Below, in pieces: positions 1,858 through 60,002 of a stretch of 64,000 nucleotides of DNA. How positions within the stretch are numbered: position 1 is the stretch's first letter; each line of letters opens with the position of its first letter. The DNA is from Arenicellales bacterium (GTDB lineage: Bacteria; Pseudomonadota; Gammaproteobacteria; Arenicellales; UBA868), in assembly GCA_030754035.1 (NCBI GenBank), contig JASMBC010000002.1, forward strand, positions 15,441-79,440, read 5' to 3'. The position numbers and the translations under genes were made by a program. Under the pieces are notes generated by a model. That model was not told the DNA's origin. It worked only from the letters and a program-made list of their open reading frames with translations, and searched no databases.

Positions 1858-3972
1858 ATGACCTTGAAGGTCGGCATCGACGTGGGCGGCACGTTTACTG
1901 ATTTTTGGGTTACCGAAAAAGGGGAAGAGCCGGTTGTACATAAGGTGCTTTCCACGCCTGAGGATCCGTCGATTGCAGTGCTTCGCGGTCTCAGTGAGAT
2001 TGCGGGGTTGGCGGGCTCCTCCCGGCCTCTGCGGACATTTGCAGGCAGTATCGAAACCATAGTGCACGGCACTACGGTAACGACTAACGCTACCTTGACA
2101 CGGGCCGGCGCTTGCTCCGGCTTGATTACCACGGCCGGGGTACGTGATGCGCTGGAGATGCGTCGTGGTATTCGGGAAGAGCAGTACAACAATCGATATA
2201 CCAACGTGGTACCTCTGGTGCCACGGTACTGCAGGATCGGAGTCGGTGGTCGACTCGACCGGGAGGGCCGTGAGATTGAGCCTTTGTCGCTGGATGAAGT
2301 CCAGGCCGCAGTTGATCTTTTTAAGGCCGAGGGCGTAGAAGCCGTTTCGATCTGCTTCATGAATGCCTTCGCCAATGCTCACCATGAGCAGCAGGCTGCA
2401 GATCTGGTGCGCCAGGCATTACCAGATGCTTACCTGAGTGTGTCCAGCGAATTGCTGCCATCAATCCGTTTCTACGAACGTGTCAGCACCACTGTGCTCA
2501 ACTCCTACGTCGGACCGATCCTGGAGCGTTATCTTGACCGCTTGCAGGTGCGCCTCGCAGAAGCAGGTTTTGCCGGGTTGCTGTTGGTAATGCAGTCTAA
2601 TGGCGGCGTTATGGCGCCTGACATTGCTCGGGAGAAGCCAGCCTTAACGTTGTTATCGGGCCCAGCTGCGGGCCCGGGTGCTGGTCTACTGTATGCCGGG
2701 GCCCATGATTGGAAAAACTGTATCGTCATAGATATGGGTGGCACGAGCTTCGAGGCGGCTCTGGTACGGGAGGAGCCGGTCATGGTAAACGAGGGGGTCA
2801 TAGATCGTCACCGGATTGCGTTGCCGATGCTGGGCATCCACACCATCGGTGCAGGTGGTGGTTCCATCGGATGGATTGATCAAGGGGGCTTGCTGCGCAT
2901 GGGGCCACAGAGCGCCGGCGCTAATCCGGGCCCCGCTGCCTATGGCCATGGTGGCCGTCAGCCGACAACGACTGATGCGAACTTGGTGTTGGGCTATCTG
3001 GATCCGGAGTATTTCGCTGGCGGGCGGATGCCGCTTGACCTGCCGGCGGCGCGCGATGCTATTGCTGCAGGTGTTGCCGAACCATTGGGCTTGTCAGTGG
3101 TAGAGGCTGCGGCCGGTATGTACCGGGTGACCTGCAACAACATGGCCCAGGGAGTACGGGAGATCACCATCAAGCGCGGTTACGATCCGCGCGAGTTTCC
3201 GCTGGTAGTCGCGGGCGGGGCTGGGCCTATTCATTCCTGCCTGATAGCAGACGAACTGGATATCCCTTTGCAGATCGTGCCGCGTGAATCATCGATTCTA
3301 TGTGCTGTCGGCATGTTGATGGGTGACCTCAGGCACGACCTGGTGCGCACTTTCGTCGCTCGGCTGGACGATGTCGACTGGGCTGCGTTGCAGGGTCTGG
3401 TTGATGCCCTGTGCGAGGAGGGTACGGCGCTGCTGGAGGCGGAGCGCATCGCGCCAGATGCCCGTGAGTTTTTCCTCAAACTCGATTGCCGGTATCTCAA
3501 GCAATATCACGAAGTCTCTTTCCCGGTACCGCTTCAGGCGATCACCGATCGGGACCAGGCCGTAATCGCAAGCGCCTTTCACGCTGAGTATAACCGCCTG
3601 TACGGGTACTCACTGGAGCAGGAAGCCGCTGCGGTTGAGATCATCAACATTCGCCTACAGGCAGTTGGACGCGTTGAGAAACCGGAACTGAATGCCGAAA
3701 TCCGCCATGGCGCTGATGCGTCCCATGCGATCAAGGGTGAGCGGTCAGTTTATGTTTTTGAAGATGACGCATTTCGCCAGATGTCGGTCTACGATGGCGA
3801 TAAGTTGCAACATGGCAATCGCGTTGCTGGTCCGGCGATAATCGAGAAACAGACCACAGCAGTGTTTGTCAGCTCATCGTTTGACTGTATCTGCGACAGC
3901 CTCGGTTCGCTAGTGCTGTATAGCCGCCAGCGGGCTGATTTGGTGACAGAACTGCTCAGAGGAGACTCCTGA
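1858..3972 (+). CDS. Hydantoinase A-like (HyuA/acetophenone carboxylase family) subunit, probable 2-oxoindoleacetate lactamase
   Basis: A 704-residue ATP-binding subunit of the hydantoinase/oxoprolinase family. The N-terminal actin-like phosphate motif IDVGGTFTDFWV (residues 6-17) and the later IDMGGTSFEAALV and ASGC-terminal AGGAGPIHSC segments are the family nucleotide-binding signatures. These enzymes use ATP to open lactams or carboxylate ketones. With the next gene it matches the IaaCE pair that opens the 2-oxoindole ring in anaerobic indoleacetate degradation; which of the two letters applies I cannot say. A GAGG site lies 12 bases before the ATG. The alternative, another hydantoinase or a ketone carboxylase, is made less likely by the mutase and Mo hydroxylase alongside. 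Confidence 0.8.
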   Translation: MTLKVGIDVGGTFTDFWVTEKGEEPVVHKVLSTPEDPSIAVLRGLSEIAGLAGSSRPLRTFAGSIETIVHGTTVTTNATLTRAGACSGLITTAGVRDALEMRRGIREEQYNNRYTNVVPLVPRYCRIGVGGRLDREGREIEPLSLDEVQAAVDLFKAEGVEAVSICFMNAFANAHHEQQAADLVRQALPDAYLSVSSELLPSIRFYERVSTTVLNSYVGPILERYLDRLQVRLAEAGFAGLLLVMQSNGGVMAPDIAREKPALTLLSGPAAGPGAGLLYAGAHDWKNCIVIDMGGTSFEAALVREEPVMVNEGVIDRHRIALPMLGIHTIGAGGGSIGWIDQGGLLRMGPQSAGANPGPAAYGHGGRQPTTTDANLVLGYLDPEYFAGGRMPLDLPAARDAIAAGVAEPLGLSVVEAAAGMYRVTCNNMAQGVREITIKRGYDPREFPLVVAGGAGPIHSCLIADELDIPLQIVPRESSILCAVGMLMGDLRHDLVRTFVARLDDVDWAALQGLVDALCEEGTALLEAERIAPDAREFFLKLDCRYLKQYHEVSFPVPLQAITDRDQAVIASAFHAEYNRLYGYSLEQEAAAVEIINIRLQAVGRVEKPELNAEIRHGADASHAIKGERSVYVFEDDAFRQMSVYDGDKLQHGNRVAGPAIIEKQTTAVFVSSSFDCICDSLGSLVLYSRQRADLVTELLRGDS

Positions 3973-5681
3973 TGAAACAGGTCGATCCGGTACTTCTGGC
4001 GGTGTATGCCCGCATCTTCAAGTCGATCACCGATGAGATGAGCCTGTCGGTTCAGATGACCGCGCGCTCACCGATTTTGTGTGAAGCCAAGGATTTTGTC
4101 ACCGGGCTGTACGATGCCGAGGGCAACATGCTGGAGCAGACCGAGAACCTCCCGATTCTGGCGTTTTCCCTGGCGCCGGTCTGCAAGTACATCATTGAAT
4201 ATTTCGGTGATGACGTGCACGAAGGCGATGTCATTTTCCACAATGATGTTTTCTCGCTGGGCAACCAGAATAACGACGTCGCGGTATATAAGCCGATCTT
4301 TCACGATGGTGAATTGATTGGTTGGTCTGCGGTCAAGGGGCACCAGGCCGACATCGGTGGCGCAGTCCGAGGTGGTTATAACCCCAACGCGACCGAAGTC
4401 TGGCAGGAGGCACTGCGCATTCCGCCGGTAAAGGTCTACGAGAAGGGGCAACTGCGCAAGGACGTCTGGGGACTCATCTTCGCCAATATCCGGCTGGACA
4501 TAGTCCAGCACGACCTGCGCTCGCAGATGGGTGCCTGTACCGTTGGTGAGCGACGTCTACAGGCGCTGTTGTGCAAGTACGGTGTTGATAGTTTTTTCGT
4601 ACACAAGGCCGCTTTATTCGATGCCTCGCGAAAAATGGTTGAGAAAGAAATCGAGCAGATACCCAATGGCAATTACCACGGCACAGGGCGGGTGTATTTT
4701 GACGGTCACCATGAAGGCACCCAGTTCGACATCCGCGTCAGTATTACGGTCACGGAGCAGCGTATCACCTTCGACTACAGTGAGACCGACCCACAGACCG
4801 ACGGTTTCGTCAACGGAACCTTTACCTCCAGCGCCTCGGCGACGGTTCTCTCATTTTTGCAGATGATCAATCCTGACATACCCCACAACGAAGGTATGCT
4901 CCAACCGATAGACATCATTATTCCCGAGGGCACTATTCTCAATGCCAGCTACCCTAAGGCGACCACATTTGGTAATCATCTGTGCCCGCCAAATGCCGAT
5001 GCCATCATTCGGGCGCTGGCACCGGTAATCCCGGACAGGGTTACCGCTGGCTGGAACAACTTGCTATGTTCGTTAACGACCGGGCTGGATCCGGCCACCG
5101 GTGAGCCCTATGTGGATATTGGCTTCATGGGGCTCAAGGGAGGCTCTGGCGCCATGCACGGGACCGATGGATATGACCATATTGGCATGATTGATGCCTC
5201 GGGTGGCGTACTCGATCAGGATTACGAGATGTTCGAGCAGATGACGCCTCACCGCCTGATTCGTCATGAGTATCAGCCTGACTCGGCGGGCCCTGGTCAG
5301 TGGCGCGGCGGCCTGGGGGTGGTGACCGAGTTCGTGATTGGTTCCCACGACACGCAATTAGTTACCTTCGGTGACGGTGATTTTGAGCCTGCATTCGGCC
5401 TATTCGGTGGTGGCGACGGAACTCTCAATACTATTCGTCTGACTTACCCCGATGGCCGAGAGGTGATTCCCCGTAACAAGGACCTGATCAAGAACGTTCC
5501 GGCAGGCACACACTATTTCCAACTTGCCGGTGGAGGCGGGGGTTATGGTGACCCGGCCCGGCGTGACCGTGACCTGCTGACCGAAGAAATCCGCAATGGC
5601 ATCATCAGCGCGGCCCAGGCGCAGCAGGCCTACCACCTGGATTCCAGCCAAACTCAGTCAGGGGCAGGCGATGAACTTTGA
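3972..5681 (+). CDS. Hydantoinase B-like (HyuB) subunit, partner of the preceding HyuA
   Basis: A 569-residue hydantoinase B/oxoprolinase family protein. It opens with VDPVLLAVYARIFKSITDEM and contains FHNDVFSLGNQNNDVAVYKPIF, PNATEVWQEALRIPP and the C-terminal GGGGGYGDPARRD glycine-rich segment, all standard for the family. The ATG overlaps the HyuA stop by one base, so both subunits should be made together. Expected complex: HyuA/HyuB heteromer that hydrolyses a cyclic amide using ATP, here proposed for 2-oxoindole-3-acetate giving 2-aminophenylsuccinate. The ring-opening assignment rests on gene context, not on residues specific to that substrate. Confidence 0.8.
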   Translation: MKQVDPVLLAVYARIFKSITDEMSLSVQMTARSPILCEAKDFVTGLYDAEGNMLEQTENLPILAFSLAPVCKYIIEYFGDDVHEGDVIFHNDVFSLGNQNNDVAVYKPIFHDGELIGWSAVKGHQADIGGAVRGGYNPNATEVWQEALRIPPVKVYEKGQLRKDVWGLIFANIRLDIVQHDLRSQMGACTVGERRLQALLCKYGVDSFFVHKAALFDASRKMVEKEIEQIPNGNYHGTGRVYFDGHHEGTQFDIRVSITVTEQRITFDYSETDPQTDGFVNGTFTSSASATVLSFLQMINPDIPHNEGMLQPIDIIIPEGTILNASYPKATTFGNHLCPPNADAIIRALAPVIPDRVTAGWNNLLCSLTTGLDPATGEPYVDIGFMGLKGGSGAMHGTDGYDHIGMIDASGGVLDQDYEMFEQMTPHRLIRHEYQPDSAGPGQWRGGLGVVTEFVIGSHDTQLVTFGDGDFEPAFGLFGGGDGTLNTIRLTYPDGREVIPRNKDLIKNVPAGTHYFQLAGGGGGYGDPARRDRDLLTEEIRNGIISAAQAQQAYHLDSSQTQSGAGDEL

Positions 5682-20292: not shown

Positions 20293-21942
20293 ATGACGAT
20301 CAGCAGTGGGACACTGGTTCTAGATGGGCAGGAGCTTTCATTGGAAGAATTAGTTGAGGTCGGACGTGACCCTTCAATCAGCATTTCAATTCAACCTAGC
20401 AATTGGCCGAAGATCGAGCAGTGTCGAGCCCTGGTCGAAAAGTGGGCCGATGAAGAACAGGTCATCTATGGCGTCAATACCAGTTGTGGTGGACTGGTCA
20501 ACTACTTGCTGCCTAAAGGTAACGACCGCGAGTTTCAGCGAAATCTGATTCGCAGCGTATCGACCAACGTGGGTGCTTTTTTGCCTGATGAACTGGTCAG
20601 AACTACCATGATTGCGCGGGTCAATTCGCTGTGTCGGGGCTACTCTGGTATTAAACCGGAGAATCTCAAGATTTATCTGGAGATGATCAATCGGGGCGTC
20701 GTGCCGTGTATACCCGAACAGGGCTCACTGGGATCAAGCGGTGACCTGGGACCACTAGGGTGCATCGCCTGTGTGGCCATTGGCGAGTGGAAGGCCCATT
20801 ATCAGGGCAAGCTCATGGATGGGGCTGCAGCGATGGCAGCGGCCGGTATTCCACTGATGAAGCTCAATGCCAAGGAGGGTTTGTCGATGATCAACGGCAC
20901 CTCCTGTATGGCCGCTATTGCCAGCAGCAATGTTTTTGAGGCCGGCCTTGCGATCAAGCAGTCGGATGCGCTGGCGGCGCTGTCGATCGAGACCTTGCTG
21001 GGGCGCGCAAACCCGTTTGATCTGCGGGTGCATCGGCAGAAATACCACCCCGGGCAATATGCCACCGCCTATAACTTGAGCAAATTGCTCGAAGGTAGTG
21101 ATTTGGTGTTGGATGAGCAGGAAGTTTCAGAGAATCTTCAGGAGTTGTTGAAAAAGAACAACAATATCCAGGCGGCTGACATTCCGGTAGAGGACGCCTA
21201 TTCACTTCGCTGCACACCGCAACTGATCGGCCCTTGCCGCGATGGGCTCCAGTTCGCCCGGGACATCGTTAATCGTGAAATTAACAGCAGTAATGACAAC
21301 CCGCTCATATTCACAGAGTACGATACTTTCATCCACAATGGTCACTTCCAGGGTCAGTACCTGTCTCTCGCCATGGACAACATCGCGACAGTGATGACCA
21401 CTGTCAGCGTGATCAGCGACCGGCGTGTCGATCGCTTCATGGATGCCAGTCACAGCGTGGGGTTACCACCTTTTTTGGTTGCCAATGATACTGGCCTGCG
21501 GATGGGCTTTATGCCGGGGCAGTTCATGACTTCCTCGGTCGTGGCCGAGAACCGCACCCTGTGTTTGCCAGCATCGGTGCAATCGATACCTTCGACTGCG
21601 GACTTTCAGGACGTCGTCAGTTTCGGCCTGATCGCCGGGCGCAAGGCACGCAAAGTGATTCGTAACACCAACTATGTGTTGGCGTTCGAACTGATGTGTG
21701 GTGCGCAAGCCGCTGACATTCGTGGTGCCCACCGTCTGGGCCCGGCATCGCGGGCGTTGTACGAGGCGACCCGGGAAACGGTGCCCTACCTGGACTACGA
21801 TACCGTTATCATCGATTATCTGGAAGAGATTGCCCGGCGTCTGCGCCAGGGTGAGTTCCTCGAGCGGGTGGAACAGGTGGTTGGGCCATTGATGATGAAC
21901 GATACTTCCGGTGGTTCCGAGGAGTTGGCTAAGGCGGCTTGA
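20293..21942 (+). CDS. MIO-type aromatic amino acid ammonia-lyase or 2,3-aminomutase (HAL/PAL family)
   Basis: A 549-residue member of the histidine/phenylalanine ammonia-lyase family. It keeps the catalytic Tyr (IYGVNTSCGG, Y59), the MIO-forming triad as Ser148-Ser149-Gly150 within GSLGSSGDLGPLG (usually Ala-Ser-Gly), MINGTSCM, EDAYSLRCTPQ and SSNDNPL. At the selectivity loop it reads NLIRSVSTNVG, without the His that marks tyrosine and histidine lyases, so phenylalanine or a related aromatic amino acid is likely. The next gene is a beta-amino acid-type transaminase, which favours an aminomutase making a beta-amino acid; a simple lyase giving cinnamate is the alternative. Start has AGGAGA 6 bases upstream. 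Confidence 0.85.
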   Translation: MTISSGTLVLDGQELSLEELVEVGRDPSISISIQPSNWPKIEQCRALVEKWADEEQVIYGVNTSCGGLVNYLLPKGNDREFQRNLIRSVSTNVGAFLPDELVRTTMIARVNSLCRGYSGIKPENLKIYLEMINRGVVPCIPEQGSLGSSGDLGPLGCIACVAIGEWKAHYQGKLMDGAAAMAAAGIPLMKLNAKEGLSMINGTSCMAAIASSNVFEAGLAIKQSDALAALSIETLLGRANPFDLRVHRQKYHPGQYATAYNLSKLLEGSDLVLDEQEVSENLQELLKKNNNIQAADIPVEDAYSLRCTPQLIGPCRDGLQFARDIVNREINSSNDNPLIFTEYDTFIHNGHFQGQYLSLAMDNIATVMTTVSVISDRRVDRFMDASHSVGLPPFLVANDTGLRMGFMPGQFMTSSVVAENRTLCLPASVQSIPSTADFQDVVSFGLIAGRKARKVIRNTNYVLAFELMCGAQAADIRGAHRLGPASRALYEATRETVPYLDYDTVIIDYLEEIARRLRQGEFLERVEQVVGPLMMNDTSGGSEELAKAA

Positions 21943-21984
21943 ACCAGGTTTTTTCCCTGGACATCAAGGCCGTAGCAGAACACG

Positions 21985-23247
21985 ATGCAACGCCAGGTGA
22001 TTGAAAGCCGCTATCGGGAACTGACCGCGAGTAGTGCCCGCGCCTTCAGTGAAGCTAAGCGTTGGCTCCCCGGGGGGTGTTCACGACAGGCAGGCTTCTG
22101 GCATCCCTATCCCCTTACTTTCGTGCGCGGTGAAACATGTTACCTGTGGGATCTGGATGGCAGACGTTATATCGATCTTCTCGGTAACTACACAGCATTG
22201 GTACACGGTCATGCCTATCCACCGATAGTAGCGGCAGCACGGGCCCGAACTGACGACAGTTCCTGCTGGGTCGGTAACAACGAGGAACAGGTTCGGCTTG
22301 CCCGGCTGCTGGTCGAACGGGTCGGCTCAGTGGAACAGGTACGGTTTACCAATTCGGGTACCGAGGCAGCCAATCTTGCCCTGATGATCGCGCGCCGCTG
22401 GACCGGCCGCGATAAGGTGTTAATGGCCCGAGGTGGTTACCATGGCTCATTGATGGAGTTTGAGACCGGCTTTGGGGGCGCCACCGGCCCACTGACCTGT
22501 ATTGCCCAGTATGGTGACCTGCCCGCGTTTCAGGAAGTGCTCTCACAAGAGGGTGAATCCATAGCTGCAGTCTTCCTTGAACCGGTTATGGGGGCGGGCG
22601 GCGTGATTTCCGGCAGTCAAGAGTTCATCGAAGGCGTGCGCGAGGCTGCCCACTCAGCTGGTGCGCTATTTGTTCTGGATGAGGTTTTGACCCTGCGGTT
22701 GGCCCGCGGTGGTCGGCAGGCGCAACTCGGAGTCACGCCGGATCTAACCCTGTTTGGCAAGCTGATTGGTGGCGGCTTCCCGGTAGGGGCAGTCGGGGGT
22801 GGCCGGGAACTGCTGGAATTGTTCGACCCCGCCAATCCACGAATCTTTCATACCGGCACCTTCAACGCTAATCCAGTTACCATGGCAGCAGGGGTTGCCT
22901 CGGTCGAGGCGCTGACTGCCGAACGCATCGACCACATGGATGCTCTTGCCGAGAAACTGAAAAACGGGCTGTTGCAGGCCGCCAGTCAGGCGGGGTTAGC
23001 CTTGTCGATCAATCACACGGGCTCGATCATGAATCTGTTTTTTTCCGACTCGCCTGGCACGGCCTATGGTGCGCGTGACGACCAGGAACTGATGGCCCGT
23101 TTTCACCTGGCAGCTTTGAATCATGGGTTGTTCCTCGCTCCACGTGGGCTGATTGCCTTGTCCACAGTAATGAGCGGCGCGACTATTGACGAGGTGCTCG
23201 AGCGCGCAGTTGCGGCACTGGCAGATACCGCGTCGGCAGAACTTTGA
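21985..23247 (+). CDS. Class III PLP aminotransferase resembling beta-phenylalanine aminotransferase
   Basis: A 420-residue class III (glutamate-1-semialdehyde-like fold) aminotransferase. PLP Lys is K259 (TLFGKLIGGG), the ring-binding Asp is D232 (VLDEVL), and the FTNSGTEA phosphate loop is intact. From memory of the beta-phenylalanine aminotransferase of Variovorax, two substrate-binding Arg residues are in equivalent places: R34 in GGCSRQAGFWHPYP and R387 in LAPRGLIALS. It lies 42 bases after the MIO gene on the same strand. A proposed role is conversion of a 3-amino-3-arylpropanoate to the 3-keto acid. Glutamate-1-semialdehyde mutase is unlikely because the context is catabolic. No good ribosome site is visible. 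Confidence 0.78.
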   Translation: MQRQVIESRYRELTASSARAFSEAKRWLPGGCSRQAGFWHPYPLTFVRGETCYLWDLDGRRYIDLLGNYTALVHGHAYPPIVAAARARTDDSSCWVGNNEEQVRLARLLVERVGSVEQVRFTNSGTEAANLALMIARRWTGRDKVLMARGGYHGSLMEFETGFGGATGPLTCIAQYGDLPAFQEVLSQEGESIAAVFLEPVMGAGGVISGSQEFIEGVREAAHSAGALFVLDEVLTLRLARGGRQAQLGVTPDLTLFGKLIGGGFPVGAVGGGRELLELFDPANPRIFHTGTFNANPVTMAAGVASVEALTAERIDHMDALAEKLKNGLLQAASQAGLALSINHTGSIMNLFFSDSPGTAYGARDDQELMARFHLAALNHGLFLAPRGLIALSTVMSGATIDEVLERAVAALADTASAEL

Positions 23248-23428: not shown

Positions 23429-25654
23429 TCAGCCGCCGCTTATTGCGCTGACGAAGGAAATCCGGTCACCATCATGTATCCGGGTCGCCCGCTCGCCGGA
23501 CATGATCGTCTGGCCGTTGAGAATAGCCAGGGACAACTCGCCATCCAGCCGCTCGGCAAGAGTCGGGCGGCACCGTGCCAGTGTAACGCGCAACTCAGCC
23601 AGGTCAGCAACCGGTTCGTCCAGCAGAACTGTTTCGGCTGGTTGCCCGGCTTCCCGGGGAAAATCAATAGTGACCGCAAAACCGGTGGCCGCGCGTACCA
23701 ATGCCGCGCGCCACTGGGGGTGTGGAAGCCCGGCCTCTGTCAGCCCGGCTACCTCGTAGAAACGCATCTTGAGAGCCTCGAATGCGACTGAGTCCAGCCG
23801 TTCACCCTGGTAGGGGCCATCACTGACGCCCTCCAGGAACCAGCGTCGAGGGAGCGTATCATCGGCCGGACCCAGACCAAGGCGATGATTGAGTAGCCGC
23901 TCCAGGCCATTGATATTGGCGCCAGCGGCCTCAACCGTTGCAGCACTCATCTCGACCCCGGTCAACTGCTGTAGTTGGCCCGCAAAGTCATGGCAATCCG
24001 GGAGGCTGGGTGAATTGAACAGCCAGGTATTGAAGCGGCACATGCCCACCGCATCGCCACTGGCATAGACACGCTCACAGCGGGCTACAGCATACTCCTT
24101 GCCCTCGTAGTCGTTGGGTCGGGCCGCTACCTCACCATCGTACAATGCCTGCTTGAACTGTGGGTCGTCATTGATTCGCGCATTGATCTCAAGTGTGACC
24201 CGGTTGCGCAGGTGATCCATGCCGCGGGTTGCAACCGCCAGCCCGAGCGCGAAAGCTTTGATGATGCGCGCATCATGGGGATCTGACTGGAACAGGCCCT
24301 TCGATGCCATGCGGTAATCCAGCGCTGCAGATGGATATTTTCCGTGCGCCACCGCTTTACCTGAGTCGGCCAGAGTATCGCCAAAACCGTTGCGCTCGGC
24401 GATCAAGAGTAGCAGGTGCTCAATCAGTTCAGCGTCACCCCAATTCAGTTCGAGGCCGCCAGTATCCGCGGTAGTCAGCAGGTCACGCTGGTACAGTTCC
24501 ATGGCCCAGGCAATGGCACTTCCGGTGCTGGCTGAGTCCAGGCCGAGGTCGTTGAGCATATTGTTGAATCGGACGACCTGTTGCGGTTGGTCAATACCCA
24601 GGCCCGGCCCGAACTTGCCGAGCGTGACATATTCCGGGCCATCACCATGTAACCAGTTATCCTCGTTCGGTTCGTTATCGGTTGCCTCGGGAACTGTCGG
24701 CAGGCGGTTGCGGGCACGACAGTGCACCGGGCATTTGTAGCAACCAGCCATGCCATCGCGGTAAGTATCGAAGTGCTCCGCGTCAAGCGTTTCCCGCCAA
24801 CCGGTCTGCTGGTTGTTGCGAACGCCCAACGCGCCCAGCAACCGGCTTGGCTTGTAGAGAAATGGGGTACCGACTGTCTTCAGTACTTTGCGTGTCACAC
24901 TGGTACTGAGAATCTTGCGGCCGATCGCTTTGCTCGCGGCCCGGTAGTCATCGTCCATCGGCCAAGCGGGTGGGCGGCCCAGGATCAGGATTGCCTTGAG
25001 GCCCAGGGCCCCCATTTTGGCACCGCCCCCTCCGCGCGCCCAGATGGACTTCGGTCCGGCCATAATTCCTGCGCATAAGACCAGGTTCTCACCTGCCCGG
25101 GTGATCCGGGCCATCGCCATATCGCGGCCTTCCTGGCAGGCGAAGTCCCCTTCGATCGCTGTTGTCAGGGCAATGTTATCCATGCCTTGGTAGCAATCTC
25201 CATCCAGAAACTCGGTCGTACCCTGGCCCAGTTTCAGCACGGTCCATCCCGGTGAGCGGCCGTAGAGCACAATATGGTCAATACCATGGCGGCGCATAAA
25301 CGACGGGAAGTAATCACCGGCGTTGCTGTCAAGTATGGCGTCACTGTCTGGAGCCACCCCACTGACGTTGCCGCGGGGTGCTCCGGGGATTAGCGAGGTC
25401 AGCACTCCGGCGCCGAAGATCAGTGGAACCTGTGGGTCCAGCGGATCCAACCCTTCCGGGAGCAGGTTGTACAGCAGTGCCATGTTCGCGCCACGGCCTC
25501 CCAGGTAGTTCTCAAAGATCTCCCGTGGCAAAAAATAACGACAGGTTTCATGCCGCTCAAGATCGACAAACAGTGTGCCACCCTGGGTAGCAAATTGTGG
25601 TTCGTCGTGCAGGCGATCGCACAAGCGTGTAACTCGCTCACGGGTATCCATCAT
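23429..25654 (-). CDS. Aldehyde:ferredoxin oxidoreductase (AOR family) fused to a C-terminal MoaD-like domain
   Basis: A 741-residue tungstopterin oxidoreductase. Typical AORs have about 605-620 residues. The N-terminal GGRGANMALLYNLLP segment, the [4Fe-4S] Cys motif CYKCPVHC and the late Cys in GMCRF mark the AOR fold. Residues from about 658 to the end form a ubiquitin-like MoaD/ThiS domain (VTIDFPREAG, TLAERLDGELSLAILNG, IHDGDRISFVSAISGG) ending in the diagnostic Gly-Gly. MoaD delivers sulfur for the pterin cofactor, so the enzyme carries its own cofactor-assembly partner in cis. Likely substrates are arylacetaldehydes or benzaldehyde; a BamB-like role is a weaker alternative. The start overlaps the bzdR stop by one base. 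Confidence 0.82.
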   Translation of the reverse strand: MMDTRERVTRLCDRLHDEPQFATQGGTLFVDLERHETCRYFLPREIFENYLGGRGANMALLYNLLPEGLDPLDPQVPLIFGAGVLTSLIPGAPRGNVSGVAPDSDAILDSNAGDYFPSFMRRHGIDHIVLYGRSPGWTVLKLGQGTTEFLDGDCYQGMDNIALTTAIEGDFACQEGRDMAMARITRAGENLVLCAGIMAGPKSIWARGGGGAKMGALGLKAILILGRPPAWPMDDDYRAASKAIGRKILSTSVTRKVLKTVGTPFLYKPSRLLGALGVRNNQQTGWRETLDAEHFDTYRDGMAGCYKCPVHCRARNRLPTVPEATDNEPNEDNWLHGDGPEYVTLGKFGPGLGIDQPQQVVRFNNMLNDLGLDSASTGSAIAWAMELYQRDLLTTADTGGLELNWGDAELIEHLLLLIAERNGFGDTLADSGKAVAHGKYPSAALDYRMASKGLFQSDPHDARIIKAFALGLAVATRGMDHLRNRVTLEINARINDDPQFKQALYDGEVAARPNDYEGKEYAVARCERVYASGDAVGMCRFNTWLFNSPSLPDCHDFAGQLQQLTGVEMSAATVEAAGANINGLERLLNHRLGLGPADDTLPRRWFLEGVSDGPYQGERLDSVAFEALKMRFYEVAGLTEAGLPHPQWRAALVRAATGFAVTIDFPREAGQPAETVLLDEPVADLAELRVTLARCRPTLAERLDGELSLAILNGQTIMSGERATRIHDGDRISFVSAISGG

Positions 25655-26550
25655 TATTCCTTGGTCATGGCTTTTCGCTGACGGCGAATAATCTGAAGCA
25701 ATTGGTGGATACAGTCTGGCTCCGACAGTTCGCTGGTATTGATTATGGCGTCAGCCTGGCGGTAATAGGGCTCGCGTTCGTTCAGCATCTCTGTCAGGTC
25801 AGCGAGTGCCTCGGGGTTGCCGTCCATAGGACGAAAATCTTTTTGCGCCAGAACCCGCTGCATATGATCTTCCGGGCGGGCCTGAAGCCAGATAGTAACG
25901 TAGTGGGTAAGCAGATAACTGAAGCTTACCGGATCGTTGATGATGCCGCCGCCGGCCTCAAGGATGATGCCTTCGTGCTGTTGACGAATGCGTTGCAAGG
26001 CGCGCTGTTCCACACGCCGATAGGCTGCCTGGCCCGACAGTGCATGGATTTCGTCGGCAGACATGCCTGCATCTTTTTCTGTTTCTTCAGTCAAGCGGAT
26101 AAAGGGTCGGTCGATTTTTTCAGCCAGAGTTAGTCCCAGAGTGCTCTTACCAGCGCCGCGCACACCGAGCAGGGCGAAGCCTCCTTGCTTGTGCAGATGA
26201 CCGTCTATGTCGTGTTCAATGAAGTCGCTGACCTGACGCAACTGTCCGGGGTCAAGCGCACCCAGTCGTTCTAACAGCAGGCTGCGTTCGCGGTCCTGCA
26301 ATTGCTCGGTACTGACCAGTTCGGACAACGGCACCTGCATCGCCGAGGCCAGTTGCCGCAAACGCCTGATCGAAGGGTTGCCCTTACCCGTTTCGATTTG
26401 CGCGAGGTAGCGGGTTGAGATCTCCGAGTAGTCGGACAACTGTGCGCGGGTTATGCCCATACGCAGCCGCAGATTGCGAATTCGTTGGCCGAGACGGGCG
26501 AGAAAGGCCTCTTCACGCCCGGCGTTGTCTGAGGAGATGGTGAAGGCCAC
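25654..26550 (-). CDS. bzdR: BzdR/BoxR-type regulator (XRE HTH plus shikimate kinase-like sensor)
   Basis: A 298-residue protein with the exact two-part build of BzdR: an XRE-type helix-turn-helix at about residues 18-78 (MGITRAQLSDYSEISTRYLAQIE) and a shikimate kinase-like domain from about 122 with a Walker A loop GVRGAGKST (129-137). In Azoarcus, BzdR represses the anaerobic benzoate operon and is released by benzoyl-CoA bound in the kinase-like domain; the length is also the same as I remember for that protein. It sits in the - strand operon with had, oah and dch, so it would be autoregulated with its targets. Known BzdR sites contain TGCA repeats. Confidence 0.92.
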   Translation of the reverse strand: MAFTISSDNAGREEAFLARLGQRIRNLRLRMGITRAQLSDYSEISTRYLAQIETGKGNPSIRRLRQLASAMQVPLSELVSTEQLQDRERSLLLERLGALDPGQLRQVSDFIEHDIDGHLHKQGGFALLGVRGAGKSTLGLTLAEKIDRPFIRLTEETEKDAGMSADEIHALSGQAAYRRVEQRALQRIRQQHEGIILEAGGGIINDPVSFSYLLTHYVTIWLQARPEDHMQRVLAQKDFRPMDGNPEALADLTEMLNEREPYYRQADAIINTSELSEPDCIHQLLQIIRRQRKAMTKE

Positions 26551-54818: not shown

Positions 54819-54881
54819 TTGACAAATTAACCATATGGAGGGTAATGTTTCAGCATACTGACTGGTCGGTATGTAACCAAA
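54819..54881 (+). promoter_or_regulatory. Promoter and TetR-type operator of the benzoyl-CoA reductase operon
   Basis: TTGACA at 54819-54824 followed 18 bases later by TAATGT (54843-54848) makes a plausible -35/-10 pair, with the start of transcription expected near 54855. Directly there lies CATACTGACTGGTCGGTATG (54854-54873), a 20-bp dyad in which 16 of 20 bases are symmetric; it has the GACxGGTC-type core common in TetR-family operators. A protein bound there would block initiation. The first codon (ATG 54882) is 9 bases later, with a second in-frame ATG at 54897. The fused TetR domain encoded just downstream is the natural candidate to bind it. Confidence 0.6.
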
Positions 54882-56726
54882 ATGACACTAGCACACATGA
54901 CACAAAAAACCACGGCGGTGGAACGGATTCTGGCGGTGGCCGAACCGCTTTTCCTGGCGGCGAGTTACGCCAACGTGACCATGGATCAGATTGCCCGCAA
55001 GGCTGGATTTACCAAGGGCGGCCTGTACCATCATTTTCCCAGCAAGGAGGCTTTGTACCTGGCGATGATGCAGACTGATCTTGCCGAGAAGCAGGCCCTT
55101 TTTACCGCGATGGCCCGATCCGGGGGTGACTGTCGATCGCGGCTGCGGTGCCTGACCCAGGCATTTTTTGAGTTACCCGATCCCAAGCGCCAACTGATCA
55201 GCCTGGTACGGCGCAACAGTAACGCCCTTGGTGACGCAGCCCGGGCTCGGTTGATCAGCGCCTACCAGCAGGCACTGCCGAACCAGATCCTGTCCATAAT
55301 CAAGAGTGGGATTCGCACGGGTGAGATTCAGACCGTCGATGCCCGTCTGTTAGCCTGGTCATTCGTAGCTCTGGTGGAAACCGCGATCAGTGCGCATGGG
55401 GACCGGGTACTGGAAGAGTCGGGTAAGAAACTCGATTTCGTCCTCGACCTGTTTTTCCGTGGAGCGTGCGGCCCAAAAGACAGTGGACTGGGCCAGGCAG
55501 CCACGACCAGCACTGCGGCAAATTCGGGGTCGGCAGTGACGGCACCAACAGCTTATACCGGCACCGGTGTGTTTCCCGAGTGGCAGGACCAGGATCTGGC
55601 TGGGCTGCTGTTGGCCTGCCGTGATCTTGTCGAGGACGGCGACTTTCCAACGGTACAGCGCTGGCGGGATGGGGGTGGCCGGGTGCTAGGCCATTTTCAG
55701 GTCTATTTTCCAGAGGAGATCGCGCATGCCGCCGGGCTGCTGCCCTTCAAGTTGCGTGGTGCCCCGGTTGAGCCCGACCATGCAGACTCCCGTTTCGGTT
55801 CGTACCTGTGTTCTATTCTCAAGACATCGCTGGAACTGGTGCTGAGCGACCGCGTAGAACTGGACATGTTTGTTACCCACCCGATCTGCGATGCAGCCCG
55901 AAATCTGGCCGCGGTCTGGGAACGCAACAGTGAGCATCCCTGTCAGATCCTGTACCTGCCGCAGAATGCGAATTCGGCCGACAGCGGGCGTTACCTGCGT
56001 AACGAGTACGCTCGGCTCCTGGAAGTGGTCCAGCAGGTTGCCGGGACTACGATCACCGATGACGACCTGCGAGGCTCTATCGAGCTGTTCAATCGCAACC
56101 GTACGCTGATCCGCGAGTTGTATCAGATCAAGCGTGAGACACCGTGGCTGTTAAATGCCGAGGATGCTTATTGCCTGGTATCGGTGGGAGGGATGGTGCC
56201 GCGCGAGGAGCACAATGCCTTGCTTGAGACGGTACTACCGATGATCCGGGAGCAGGCCGATAGTAACCAGGAGGACCGGATACGGGTGGTATTCGAGGGC
56301 GGTTTCTGTGAGCAGCCACCGTTGGATCTGATCCGCATGGTCGGTCGCTCGTGCTATGTTGTTGATGACGACTTTCTGATCGGACTGCGCTGGATTCTTG
56401 AAGACGTCCCGAGCACGGGTGATCCGCTACACCAGCTGGCCCAAGCCTACCTGGAGAAATCATCCTACAGCCCGGTACAGCACGACTTGCGCAAGCCCAA
56501 GGAAAAAATGCTCAAAGAACGGATCAGCGCCGCCCGGGCGGATGCCGCCATTATTACTGCGGCCAAGATGTGCGAGCCAGGACTGGAGGAGCAGGTCTGT
56601 TATACCCGCTCGTTGGACGAGGACGGTATAGGATATTTCGTCAGTGAGTTCGAAGAAAACATGACGAGTTTTGATCACCTGGGTCTGCAGATCGAAACTT
56701 TTATGGAAAACCTGATGTACCAGTGA
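54882..56726 (+). CDS. bzdN: TetR regulator fused to the BcrC/BzdN-type catalytic subunit of benzoyl-CoA reductase
   Basis: A 614-residue two-part protein. Residues 1-195 are a complete TetR regulator: HTH at about 14-60 (VTMDQIARKAGFTKGGLYHHF) and a TetR ligand domain ending FVLDLFFRG. A 30-40 residue linker rich in Ala, Thr, Ser and Gly follows. Residues 233-614 are a full-length reductase subunit (family length about 380) with GHFQVYFPEEIAHAAGLLP, the iron-sulfur Cys region THPICDAARN and the end MCEPGLEEQV. There is no Met or convincing ribosome site between the halves, so the fusion looks real. The start may be ATG 54882 or 54897. The next gene encodes the other catalytic subunit. The two halves are normally separate genes, so a lost stop codon is the main alternative. 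Confidence 0.85.
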   Translation: MTLAHMTQKTTAVERILAVAEPLFLAASYANVTMDQIARKAGFTKGGLYHHFPSKEALYLAMMQTDLAEKQALFTAMARSGGDCRSRLRCLTQAFFELPDPKRQLISLVRRNSNALGDAARARLISAYQQALPNQILSIIKSGIRTGEIQTVDARLLAWSFVALVETAISAHGDRVLEESGKKLDFVLDLFFRGACGPKDSGLGQAATTSTAANSGSAVTAPTAYTGTGVFPEWQDQDLAGLLLACRDLVEDGDFPTVQRWRDGGGRVLGHFQVYFPEEIAHAAGLLPFKLRGAPVEPDHADSRFGSYLCSILKTSLELVLSDRVELDMFVTHPICDAARNLAAVWERNSEHPCQILYLPQNANSADSGRYLRNEYARLLEVVQQVAGTTITDDDLRGSIELFNRNRTLIRELYQIKRETPWLLNAEDAYCLVSVGGMVPREEHNALLETVLPMIREQADSNQEDRIRVVFEGGFCEQPPLDLIRMVGRSCYVVDDDFLIGLRWILEDVPSTGDPLHQLAQAYLEKSSYSPVQHDLRKPKEKMLKERISAARADAAIITAAKMCEPGLEEQVCYTRSLDEDGIGYFVSEFEENMTSFDHLGLQIETFMENLMYQ

Positions 56727-58073: not shown

Positions 58074-58889
58074 ATGGCGTATGCTGCAGGTGTAGATGTG
58101 GGGTCGACCCAGAGTAAAGCCGCGATTGTTGATGAGGATGGCAACCTGATCGCGACCGCTCTCGACGAAACCGGAGCAAACGTGGTGCAAGCTGCAGAGA
58201 GGGTATATGAACAGGCCCTGCGCAGCGCTAAGCTGCGCGAAGAGGAAGTCGACTACATTATTGGCACTGGTTACGGCCGCTATAAGGTGACATTCGGCAA
58301 CGCCCAAGTTACCGAGATCAGCTGTCACGGCCGGGGCGCGGTAAAGATGTTTCCCGATACCCGCACGGTGATCGACATGGGTGGCCAGGATACCAAAGCC
58401 ATCAGCGTCAGTCCGAGCGGGGAGATCAACGATTTCTGTATGAATGACAAGTGTGCCGCCGGGACTGGCCGCTTTCTCGGGGCTGCTGCGATGGCCCTGG
58501 ATCTGTCTTTGGCCGAGCTTGGCCCTACGGCCTTGAAGTCGGATAAGCCCGTACGCATCAGCACCACCTGCACGGTATTCGCTGAGTCAGAAGTTCTTTC
58601 CTGGCTGGGTAAAGGAAAAAAACTTCCCGACATACTCTGGGGAGTGCACCAGTCGATCGCTACCCGAACCATCGGCCTGGTGCGTCGGGTAGGGCTGGAC
58701 GAGAAGATTACATTTACCGGCGGGGTAACCCGCAACGTGGCCATGGTCAAGGCGCTGGAAGACCGCCTCGGTATCCGCTTGAACGTGAGTGAACAGGCTC
58801 ACTACTTTGGTGCGCTCGGCGCAGCACTTTTTGCTCTTGATCATATCCTAGATAGCCGTAAACCCGCGTCTAGCGCAGAGGTGGCGTAA
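58074..58889 (+). CDS. bzdP: Benzoyl-CoA reductase ATPase subunit (BcrA/D, BadF/G family), first copy
   Basis: A 271-residue ASKHA-fold ATPase: phosphate loops [11 protein letters not shown] and [10 protein letters not shown], the iron-sulfur Cys in [13 protein letters not shown] and in [11 protein letters not shown], and TGGVTRN near the end. It uses two ATP per electron to push electrons onto the catalytic module. Two ATPase genes rather than one argue for a reductase, not for a 2-hydroxyacyl-CoA dehydratase activator. It is short compared with BcrA/BadF (about 435 residues), pointing to the Bzd subtype. The letter P is given by gene order only. Confidence 0.85.
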
Positions 58890-59719
58890 TGGACTGTACA
58901 GTCGGTATAGACGTAGGTTCTACCTACACTAAGTGTGTTGCCCTTTCGGCAAACGGTGAGATCGTTGGCCGCAGACTGGCACAAACCGGGTTCAAACTGG
59001 GGGAGATCTCGGCGAGGCTATTGAACGAGACCCTGGCAGACAGTGGGCTCGAGCGCGGCGATGTTGGCTATGTAATCGCTACCGGCTTTGGCCGCCACCA
59101 GGTCAAGGACAAGGACGCGGCGGTGACTGATCTGACCGCCGCCGCCCGCGGCGCTAGGTTCATCTTTCCGGATACCCGCACTGTGCTCGATATCGGCGGT
59201 CAGACGATGAAGGCGAGCCGGGTCGACGAGAACTGCAAGGTGGATTCGTTTCGTCTCAACGATAAGTGCGCGGCTGGAACTGGCGCGTTTTTGGAAAAGA
59301 CTGCGTATTACATGGGGTTTAAAACAAAGGAGATCGGACCGCTGTTGGCCACCTCACGTGAGTCAGTCTCCATATCAGGGGTATGCGCGGTGTTCGCTGA
59401 GTCTGAAGTGATCAATCACCTGTCACAGGGTACTGCACCGGCGGACATCATGCAGGGTGCGGTCTCATCACTGATTAAACGATCGGTTCAGTTAATGAAG
59501 CGGGTCCGCGCTGAGCCCGGATATACCCTGGTTGGTGGCCTGTTACGGTTTCGGACAATGGTTGACGAAGTGCAGGAGAAACTGGGCCAGGAAGTCAATG
59601 TTCCCGATGGGGATCTGGTTCAGTTTACAGCCGCGCTGGGTGCAGCCGTGCTGGGGCACCGGCGGATGCAGCAACTGGGTGTAGGCAGCGGGCTTACGGT
59701 GGGTGCCGGTGCTGCCTGA
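58889..59719 (+). CDS. bzdQ: Benzoyl-CoA reductase ATPase subunit, second copy
   Basis: A 276-residue ATPase of the same family: [38 protein letters not shown] and GVCAVFAESEV, so the pair of cluster Cys is kept. The second phosphate loop has Thr where the first copy has Asp (GGQTMKA versus GGQDTKA), which may make the two nucleotide sites unequal, as in a heterodimer. It overlaps the preceding stop by one base. The letter Q is given by gene order only. Confidence 0.85.
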   Translation: MDCTVGIDVGSTYTKCVALSANGEIVGRRLAQTGFKLGEISARLLNETLADSGLERGDVGYVIATGFGRHQVKDKDAAVTDLTAAARGARFIFPDTRTVLDIGGQTMKASRVDENCKVDSFRLNDKCAAGTGAFLEKTAYYMGFKTKEIGPLLATSRESVSISGVCAVFAESEVINHLSQGTAPADIMQGAVSSLIKRSVQLMKRVRAEPGYTLVGGLLRFRTMVDEVQEKLGQEVNVPDGDLVQFTAALGAAVLGHRRMQQLGVGSGLTVGAGAA

Positions 59720-60002
59720 ACAGTTGGTATCGGGTGGCTGTTGTGACTCCACGACGACCACTACTGATGCTGCGGCCGATTCCAGCGCGATTCTTGTCGA
59801 TCCAGCGCTTACGGCAGATGGCTGGGTTAAACGCTATCTGGCCGATCCCGCCCGGGCCCGCGAAGCGCGGGAACTGTACTCTTCAATGGGTTATGAGGTG
59901 TACGAGCAACAACTCGATCCCGCTGACTTTCCCCTGAGTTGTGGCGAGTGCCCCTCAGAGGTCTGCCGGGCTTATGTCATGATCTATACCCGCCGGCGTT
60001 GA
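59703..60002 (+). CDS. Small Cys-containing hypothetical protein at the end of the reductase operon
   Basis: A 99-residue frame overlapping the ATPase stop by 17 bases, on the same strand. The C-terminal 65 residues look conserved in style (DGWVKRYLADPARAREAREL then SSMGYEVYEQQLDPADF and SCGECPSEVCRAYVMIYTRR), with a CxxC and a third Cys that could bind zinc or a cluster. The N-terminal 30 residues are low-complexity (Thr/Ala/Ser). The start (GTG 59703) is uncertain. I do not recognise a function. Its location suggests a helper for the reductase. Confidence 0.6.
   Translation: MPVLPEQLVSGGCCDSTTTTTDAAADSSAILVDPALTADGWVKRYLADPARAREARELYSSMGYEVYEQQLDPADFPLSCGECPSEVCRAYVMIYTRRR

Follow-up and report, generated by a model that had tools for sequence, protein, structure and literature searches.

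PutA of enteric bacteria, in which a DNA-binding domain and a catabolic enzyme share one chain, represses its own genes, and the regulators BzdR and BoxR respond to benzoyl-CoA. To our knowledge, the regulators so far described for the anaerobic breakdown of aromatics (BzdR, MbdR) are encoded by separate genes. In Azoarcus, the mbd genes are repressed by the TetR protein MbdR, whose binding to ATACN10GTAT across the transcription start is relieved by 3-methylbenzoyl-CoA (PMC4424350). On the enzyme side, MbdNOQP of Thauera chlorobenzoica (PDB 9g87, 9gai) is the best match for all four reductase subunits encoded at the locus described here, but there MbdN is a polypeptide of its own and has no DNA-binding domain. 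No paper on the 9g87 and 9gai structures was found in the open-access literature.

The present locus shares with MbdR of Azoarcus sp. CIB (PDB 4uds) the TetR family, an mbd-type operon, ATACN10GTAT at the transcription start and autoregulation (PMC4424350), the last two being predicted features of the fusion, but MbdR has a gene to itself. BzdR and BoxR also regulate this pathway and likewise join a DNA-binding domain to one derived from an enzyme; their enzyme-like part, however, is a sensor only and not a subunit of a pathway enzyme. PutA differs in having a ribbon-helix-helix domain and a flavoenzyme, and in its redox switching, which is a demonstrated property of PutA. What is new here is the union of the two halves in one chain, its conservation and the visibility of a likely precursor; taken singly, the two halves and the operator belong to known types. 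We found no description of the TetR-MbdN architecture in the open-access literature, which omits most subscription journals.

The fused gene and its operon

The window is the whole 64,000-nucleotide stretch analyzed, positions 15441-79440 of contig C48 of G000, a 1.75-Mb metagenome-assembled genome. Within it, 54882-56726 (+) is a real TetR-MbdN fusion: a single open frame of 614 codons, running from the ATG at 54882 to the TGA at 56724-56726 with no internal stop. The parts of the fusion and the genes that follow it are:

54882..55469, + strand: TetR domain (residues 1-196), with a helix-turn-helix at about 34-51 and a ligand/dimer domain at about 63-195
55470..55568, + strand: linker (residues 197-229), low in complexity, fast-evolving yet in frame, disordered in the model
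55569..56726, + strand: MbdN-type subunit (residues 230-614 plus stop), with cluster-type cysteines C310, C336 and C564
56761..58053, + strand: mbdO homologue (PDB 9g87_A, E 3e-167), aroyl-CoA-binding catalytic subunit by homology
58074..58889, + strand: mbdQ homologue (PDB 9gai_D, E 4e-122), ATPase/activator subunit
58889..59719, + strand: mbdP homologue (PDB 9gai_C, E 3e-88), ATPase/activator subunit
59703..60002, + strand: 99-aa cysteine-containing protein, the final conserved gene of the operon, kept in fused and unfused operons

Pfam recognizes both halves, with TetR_N at residues 16-62 (57.2 bits; cut-off 24) and HGD-D at residues 273-611 (200.7 bits; cut-off 28.4), which places the second half in the 2-hydroxyacyl-CoA dehydratase/benzoyl-CoA reductase family. 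The N-terminal half has the marks of a TetR protein: this TetR_N score lies above the gathering threshold and the ligand domain is all-helical in the model, with Foldseek matches to TetR structures. AlphaFold2, run on a 55-sequence alignment, returns two confident domains (residues ~10-195 and most of 230-614) separated by a disordered segment, residues 200-223, where confidence falls below 50. A scan of the joint for start codons found no ATG between the domains, and its GTG and TTG codons occupy positions that are not common to all lineages and lack a convincing ribosome site. The original prediction of one uninterrupted frame for regulator, linker and reductase subunit, with neither an internal Met nor a good ribosome site at the joint, is borne out by these results.

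The closest solved protein to residues 231-613 is MbdN of 3-methylbenzoyl-CoA reductase (PDB 9g87_B, E 2e-152). In structural alignment this gamma subunit and the fused half are 57% identical, with a TM-score of 0.95 on target length. The NCBIfam equivalog for BcrC (TIGR02263) gives 246 bits against a curated cut-off of 421. The second half was first described as a full-length BcrC/BzdN-type subunit spanning residues 233-614; the reductase family and the full length hold, but the type is that of MbdN and the N-terminal end lies nearer residue 230. C310, C336 and C564 align with cysteines of MbdN and with C73, C100 and C327 of BzdN (numbering from PMC11971306). Three of the six cysteines of the BzdN double-cubane cluster are therefore kept, the same three as in MbdN, and the other three have no counterpart. 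The MbdN counterparts of C310, C336 and C564 may, judging from the alignment, act as cluster ligands; with only three cluster cysteines, as in MbdN, the fused protein probably holds a simpler relay cluster. In the BzdNO structure, the O subunit binds benzoyl-CoA, and a double-cubane Fe-S electron relay is housed in the N subunit (PMC11971306), so the suggestion that the attached subunit itself handles aroyl-CoA is doubtful.

The gene order mbdN-O-Q-P is the same in relatives, and the fused half is predicted to be the MbdN-type subunit of an active class I, ATP-dependent 3-methylbenzoyl-CoA-type aryl-CoA reductase. The 99-aa protein, which ends in LSCGECPSEVCRAYVMIYTRRR and has no family or PDB match, is perhaps a small partner of this reductase. 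The window also encodes the benzoyl-CoA pathway enzymes Oah, Had and Dch, all above curated cut-offs. Elsewhere in the aromatic cluster, 20293-23247 holds a phenylalanine aminomutase/ammonia-lyase-like gene, which scores below its curated cut-off, and after it a PLP aminotransferase-like gene.

Distribution, selection and origin

A search for other genomes with the same architecture, proposed along with the original prediction, recovered the single-frame fusion in genome collections (L001, L002, L003 and L004) and, genome by genome, in G014, G001, G018 and G040. It occurs in five metagenome-assembled genomes that represent four species-level lineages in two families of one order. These are five of the 109 genomes searched from that order; no further fusion was found among 369 genomes sampled across the class, and no full-length match among plasmid sequences. 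The carriers are a small group of uncultured marine bacteria. Identity to the window protein is 99% in G014, 88% in L002 and L003, and 66% in L004, which belongs to another family of the order; between the families the TetR part is 57-58% identical.

Both halves of the fusion are under purifying selection, with dN/dS values among the window, L002 and L003 of 0.05-0.11 for the TetR part and 0.03-0.07 for the MbdN part. The linker evolves faster (0.5-0.74), and its length changes in whole codons only. A stop-free linker alone is expected in about 7-13% of cases in a neutral simulation, which is too often for the open linker to serve as proof of selection. The case for a kept fusion therefore rests on the frame-keeping indels, the lack of a shared start at the joint and the recurrence in divergent genomes. 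The early view of the fusion as tolerated, and not a randomly lost stop, agrees with this conservation, selection and frame keeping. No second MbdN-like gene was found in G014, G018 or G040 (91, 79 and 98% complete), and the fused protein must therefore supply the subunit, if the reductase works.

Separate neighboring tetR and mbdN genes occur at 17 other loci in several phyla. At the 16 loci from the first search, which belong mainly to Acidimicrobiia but also to Planctomycetota and one gammaproteobacterium, the homologous tetR forms an ORF of its own immediately upstream of mbdN. At most of them mbdN begins in another frame within the end of tetR, the stop and start codons sharing an ATGA or GTGA, usually a 4-bp overlap. 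A widespread fusion in Actinobacteria, suggested by the first match list, was rejected on finding two ORFs in different frames. The 17th pair (L107, G001:C88, 4653-5270 and 3493-4656, 4-bp overlap) is unfused, and the same genome has the fused gene as well, indicating that fusion is not needed for function. No operator with three or fewer mismatches was found near L107. The pair (3493-5270) adjoins xanthine-dehydrogenase-type and dioxygenase-type genes. Generally, the unfused pairs (L023, L030, L044, L048, L058, L107 and others, from Acidimicrobiia, Planctomycetota and other groups) share the TetR and the operon order of the fusion, and several have the same or a similar operator; they differ in being two genes, most often joined by an ATGA overlap. 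Relatives in Chloroflexota, Gemmatimonadota and Acidobacteriota have mbdN without this tetR upstream.

The fused sequences fall on one side of a single branch in the MbdN-part tree (SH-aLRT 93) and likewise in the TetR-part tree (support 80/40). Both trees thus fit a single origin of the fusion, with moderate support, and the overlapping or adjacent tetR-mbdN pair is its likely precursor. The outgroup is distant, and we can only infer that the pair came before the fusion.

Operator, promoter and inducer

Two predicted elements lie directly upstream of the fused gene:

54819..54848, + strand: putative sigma-70-like promoter, read by eye (TTGACA at 54819-54824, 18-nt spacer, TAATGT at 54843-54848)
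54854..54873, no strand: predicted operator CATACTGACTGGTCGGTATG, a 20-bp near-perfect palindrome containing ATACN10GTAT that overlaps the expected transcription start

The promoter was missed by a scan with a strict consensus; a TTGAC motif is found at a similar place in L002, L003, L004, L048, L023, L058 and L073. The palindrome closely follows the -10 region, with 8 bases separating it from the start codon of the fusion, and is the sole copy in the window with fewer than four mismatches. The identical sequence stands upstream of L002 and L003; at the equivalent place L004 carries ATACTGAAGAGTAGGTAT, again with an exact ATACN10GTAT, so that the candidate fits the published MbdR operator exactly in all of these and in the window. 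Among the unfused pairs, L023 and L048 likewise have an exact match upstream and L058 and L073 a near one; a related ACCGACCGGTCAGTCGGT motif is seen in many Acidimicrobiia. At the same stringency, shuffled sequence gives about 0.7 chance matches per 1.3 Mb. G000 contains only two convincing sites, 54854-54873 and C48:812-829, the latter preceding a stand-alone sister TetR near the contig start. A 2-mismatch site in G000 and G001, considered as part of a wider regulon, was set aside as it lies inside a coding gene. The fused gene thus has what is expected of the TetR family, a conserved palindromic candidate operator near its own promoter, and its position at the expected transcription start backs the proposal that the fusion regulates its own operon.

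The same operator precedes sister TetRs that are 51-56% identical to the fused domain (48-56% in the ligand domain). Stand-alone TetRs with this palindrome are found at L110 (4041-7944) and L098-L105. The L110 neighborhood includes a benzoate-CoA ligase gene together with boxC and boxB, each of which scores above its curated cut-off. TetRs of this type are probable regulators of the aerobic benzoyl-CoA pathway, distinct from BoxR. Because benzoyl-CoA is common to the box and reductase pathways, we infer that the inducer is benzoyl-CoA or a close aryl-CoA, most likely the former. The simplest sensor is the ligand pocket of the TetR domain itself, since its free relatives regulate without an attached enzyme. 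The window also encodes a BzdR/BoxR-type regulator (25654-26550) with an XRE domain and a shikimate-kinase-like domain, above curated cut-offs; two regulators therefore probably act on the pathway. With 54882-56726, the cluster holds two kinds of regulator fused to enzyme-derived domains.

Readings of the joined chain

The fused chain is probably a bifunctional protein in which an MbdR-like TetR repressor is joined by a flexible linker to an MbdN Fe-S relay subunit, and it is likely to act as an autorepressor that responds to aryl-CoA and forms part of the very enzyme under its control. Without substrate, TetR dimers would bind the palindrome at their own transcription start and keep the fusion-mbdO-mbdQ-mbdP-orf99 unit off. 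A build-up of aryl-CoA, most likely benzoyl-CoA, would fill the TetR pocket, the repressor would leave the DNA and the operon would be expressed. New repressor would then be made 1:1 with the enzyme and work as its subunit, and once the aryl-CoA is consumed the large pool of attached repressor could shut the operon off quickly. The fusion itself would have arisen once, from an operon with adjacent or overlapping tetR and mbdN. The conserved site upstream of the operon thus suggests an enzyme that serves as its own thermostat. This explanation covers the repressor and subunit functions and makes no claim that joining them is an advantage. Several points count against it: the TetR half is only distantly similar to MbdR (E 4e-9), with several other TetRs of solved structure scoring better; G001 also has the unfused pair; an open linker is weak evidence by itself; the promoter was missed by the strict scan; and the chain could be cut in the linker after translation.

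Neutral fusion of operon genes overlaps with the preferred explanation and is a plausible, if somewhat doubtful, alternative. On this reading, a mutation that joined the two frames where tetR and mbdN overlap would have been tolerated, leaving two independent halves, a TetR that is still an autorepressor and a joint of no regulatory significance. Precursors with a 4-bp overlap are common and the linker evolves fast, as noted above, but the fusion is kept with frame-keeping indels in every fused lineage found, a pattern that fits "hard to reverse" as well as "useful".

It is less likely that the chain is a PutA-like trigger enzyme, whose DNA binding is set by assembly with MbdO or by the Fe-S cluster or redox state of MbdN and not by the TetR pocket alone. 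DNA-binding and enzyme parts do share one chain, the tether joins the electron-relay subunit, and it has been kept in four lineages across the large divergence of the TetR part. However, the same TetR is separate in most relatives and stands alone beside box genes, and its ligand domain is conserved in fused, paired and stand-alone settings; the attached enzyme is therefore not needed for sensing.

Splitting of the chain into ordinary separate TetR and MbdN proteins, by a protease or a non-canonical internal start, is improbable. The linker is disordered in the model, and residue 229, where unfused MbdN begins, is encoded by GTG in the window and L002; at this position, however, L003 has GTT and L004 has GTA, and nothing resembling a ribosome site lies ahead of it. 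An internal start for MbdN was rejected for want of a conserved candidate. Finally, although all loci are metagenome-assembled, a false join or missed frameshift is very unlikely, to the point of being negligible, because five sequence-divergent assemblies have the same architecture and the same single frame recurs in L001-L004, G014, G001, G018 and G040.

Overall, the architecture and the idea of autoregulation set out in the original prediction stand, and the substrate-handling role of the attached subunit is doubtful. Under the preferred explanation, the enzyme, which is sensitive to oxygen and consumes ATP, contains its own repressor. As the likely precursor is still present in relatives and in one fusion-bearing genome, the locus is a natural experiment on why a local regulator and its enzyme merge. 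Stoichiometric autoregulation, or the sensing of assembly by an Fe-S enzyme, can be put to the test here, and the locus also supplies a conserved candidate operator and a probable inducer. If the trigger-enzyme reading were true, the operon would sense the amount of working enzyme as well as the substrate.
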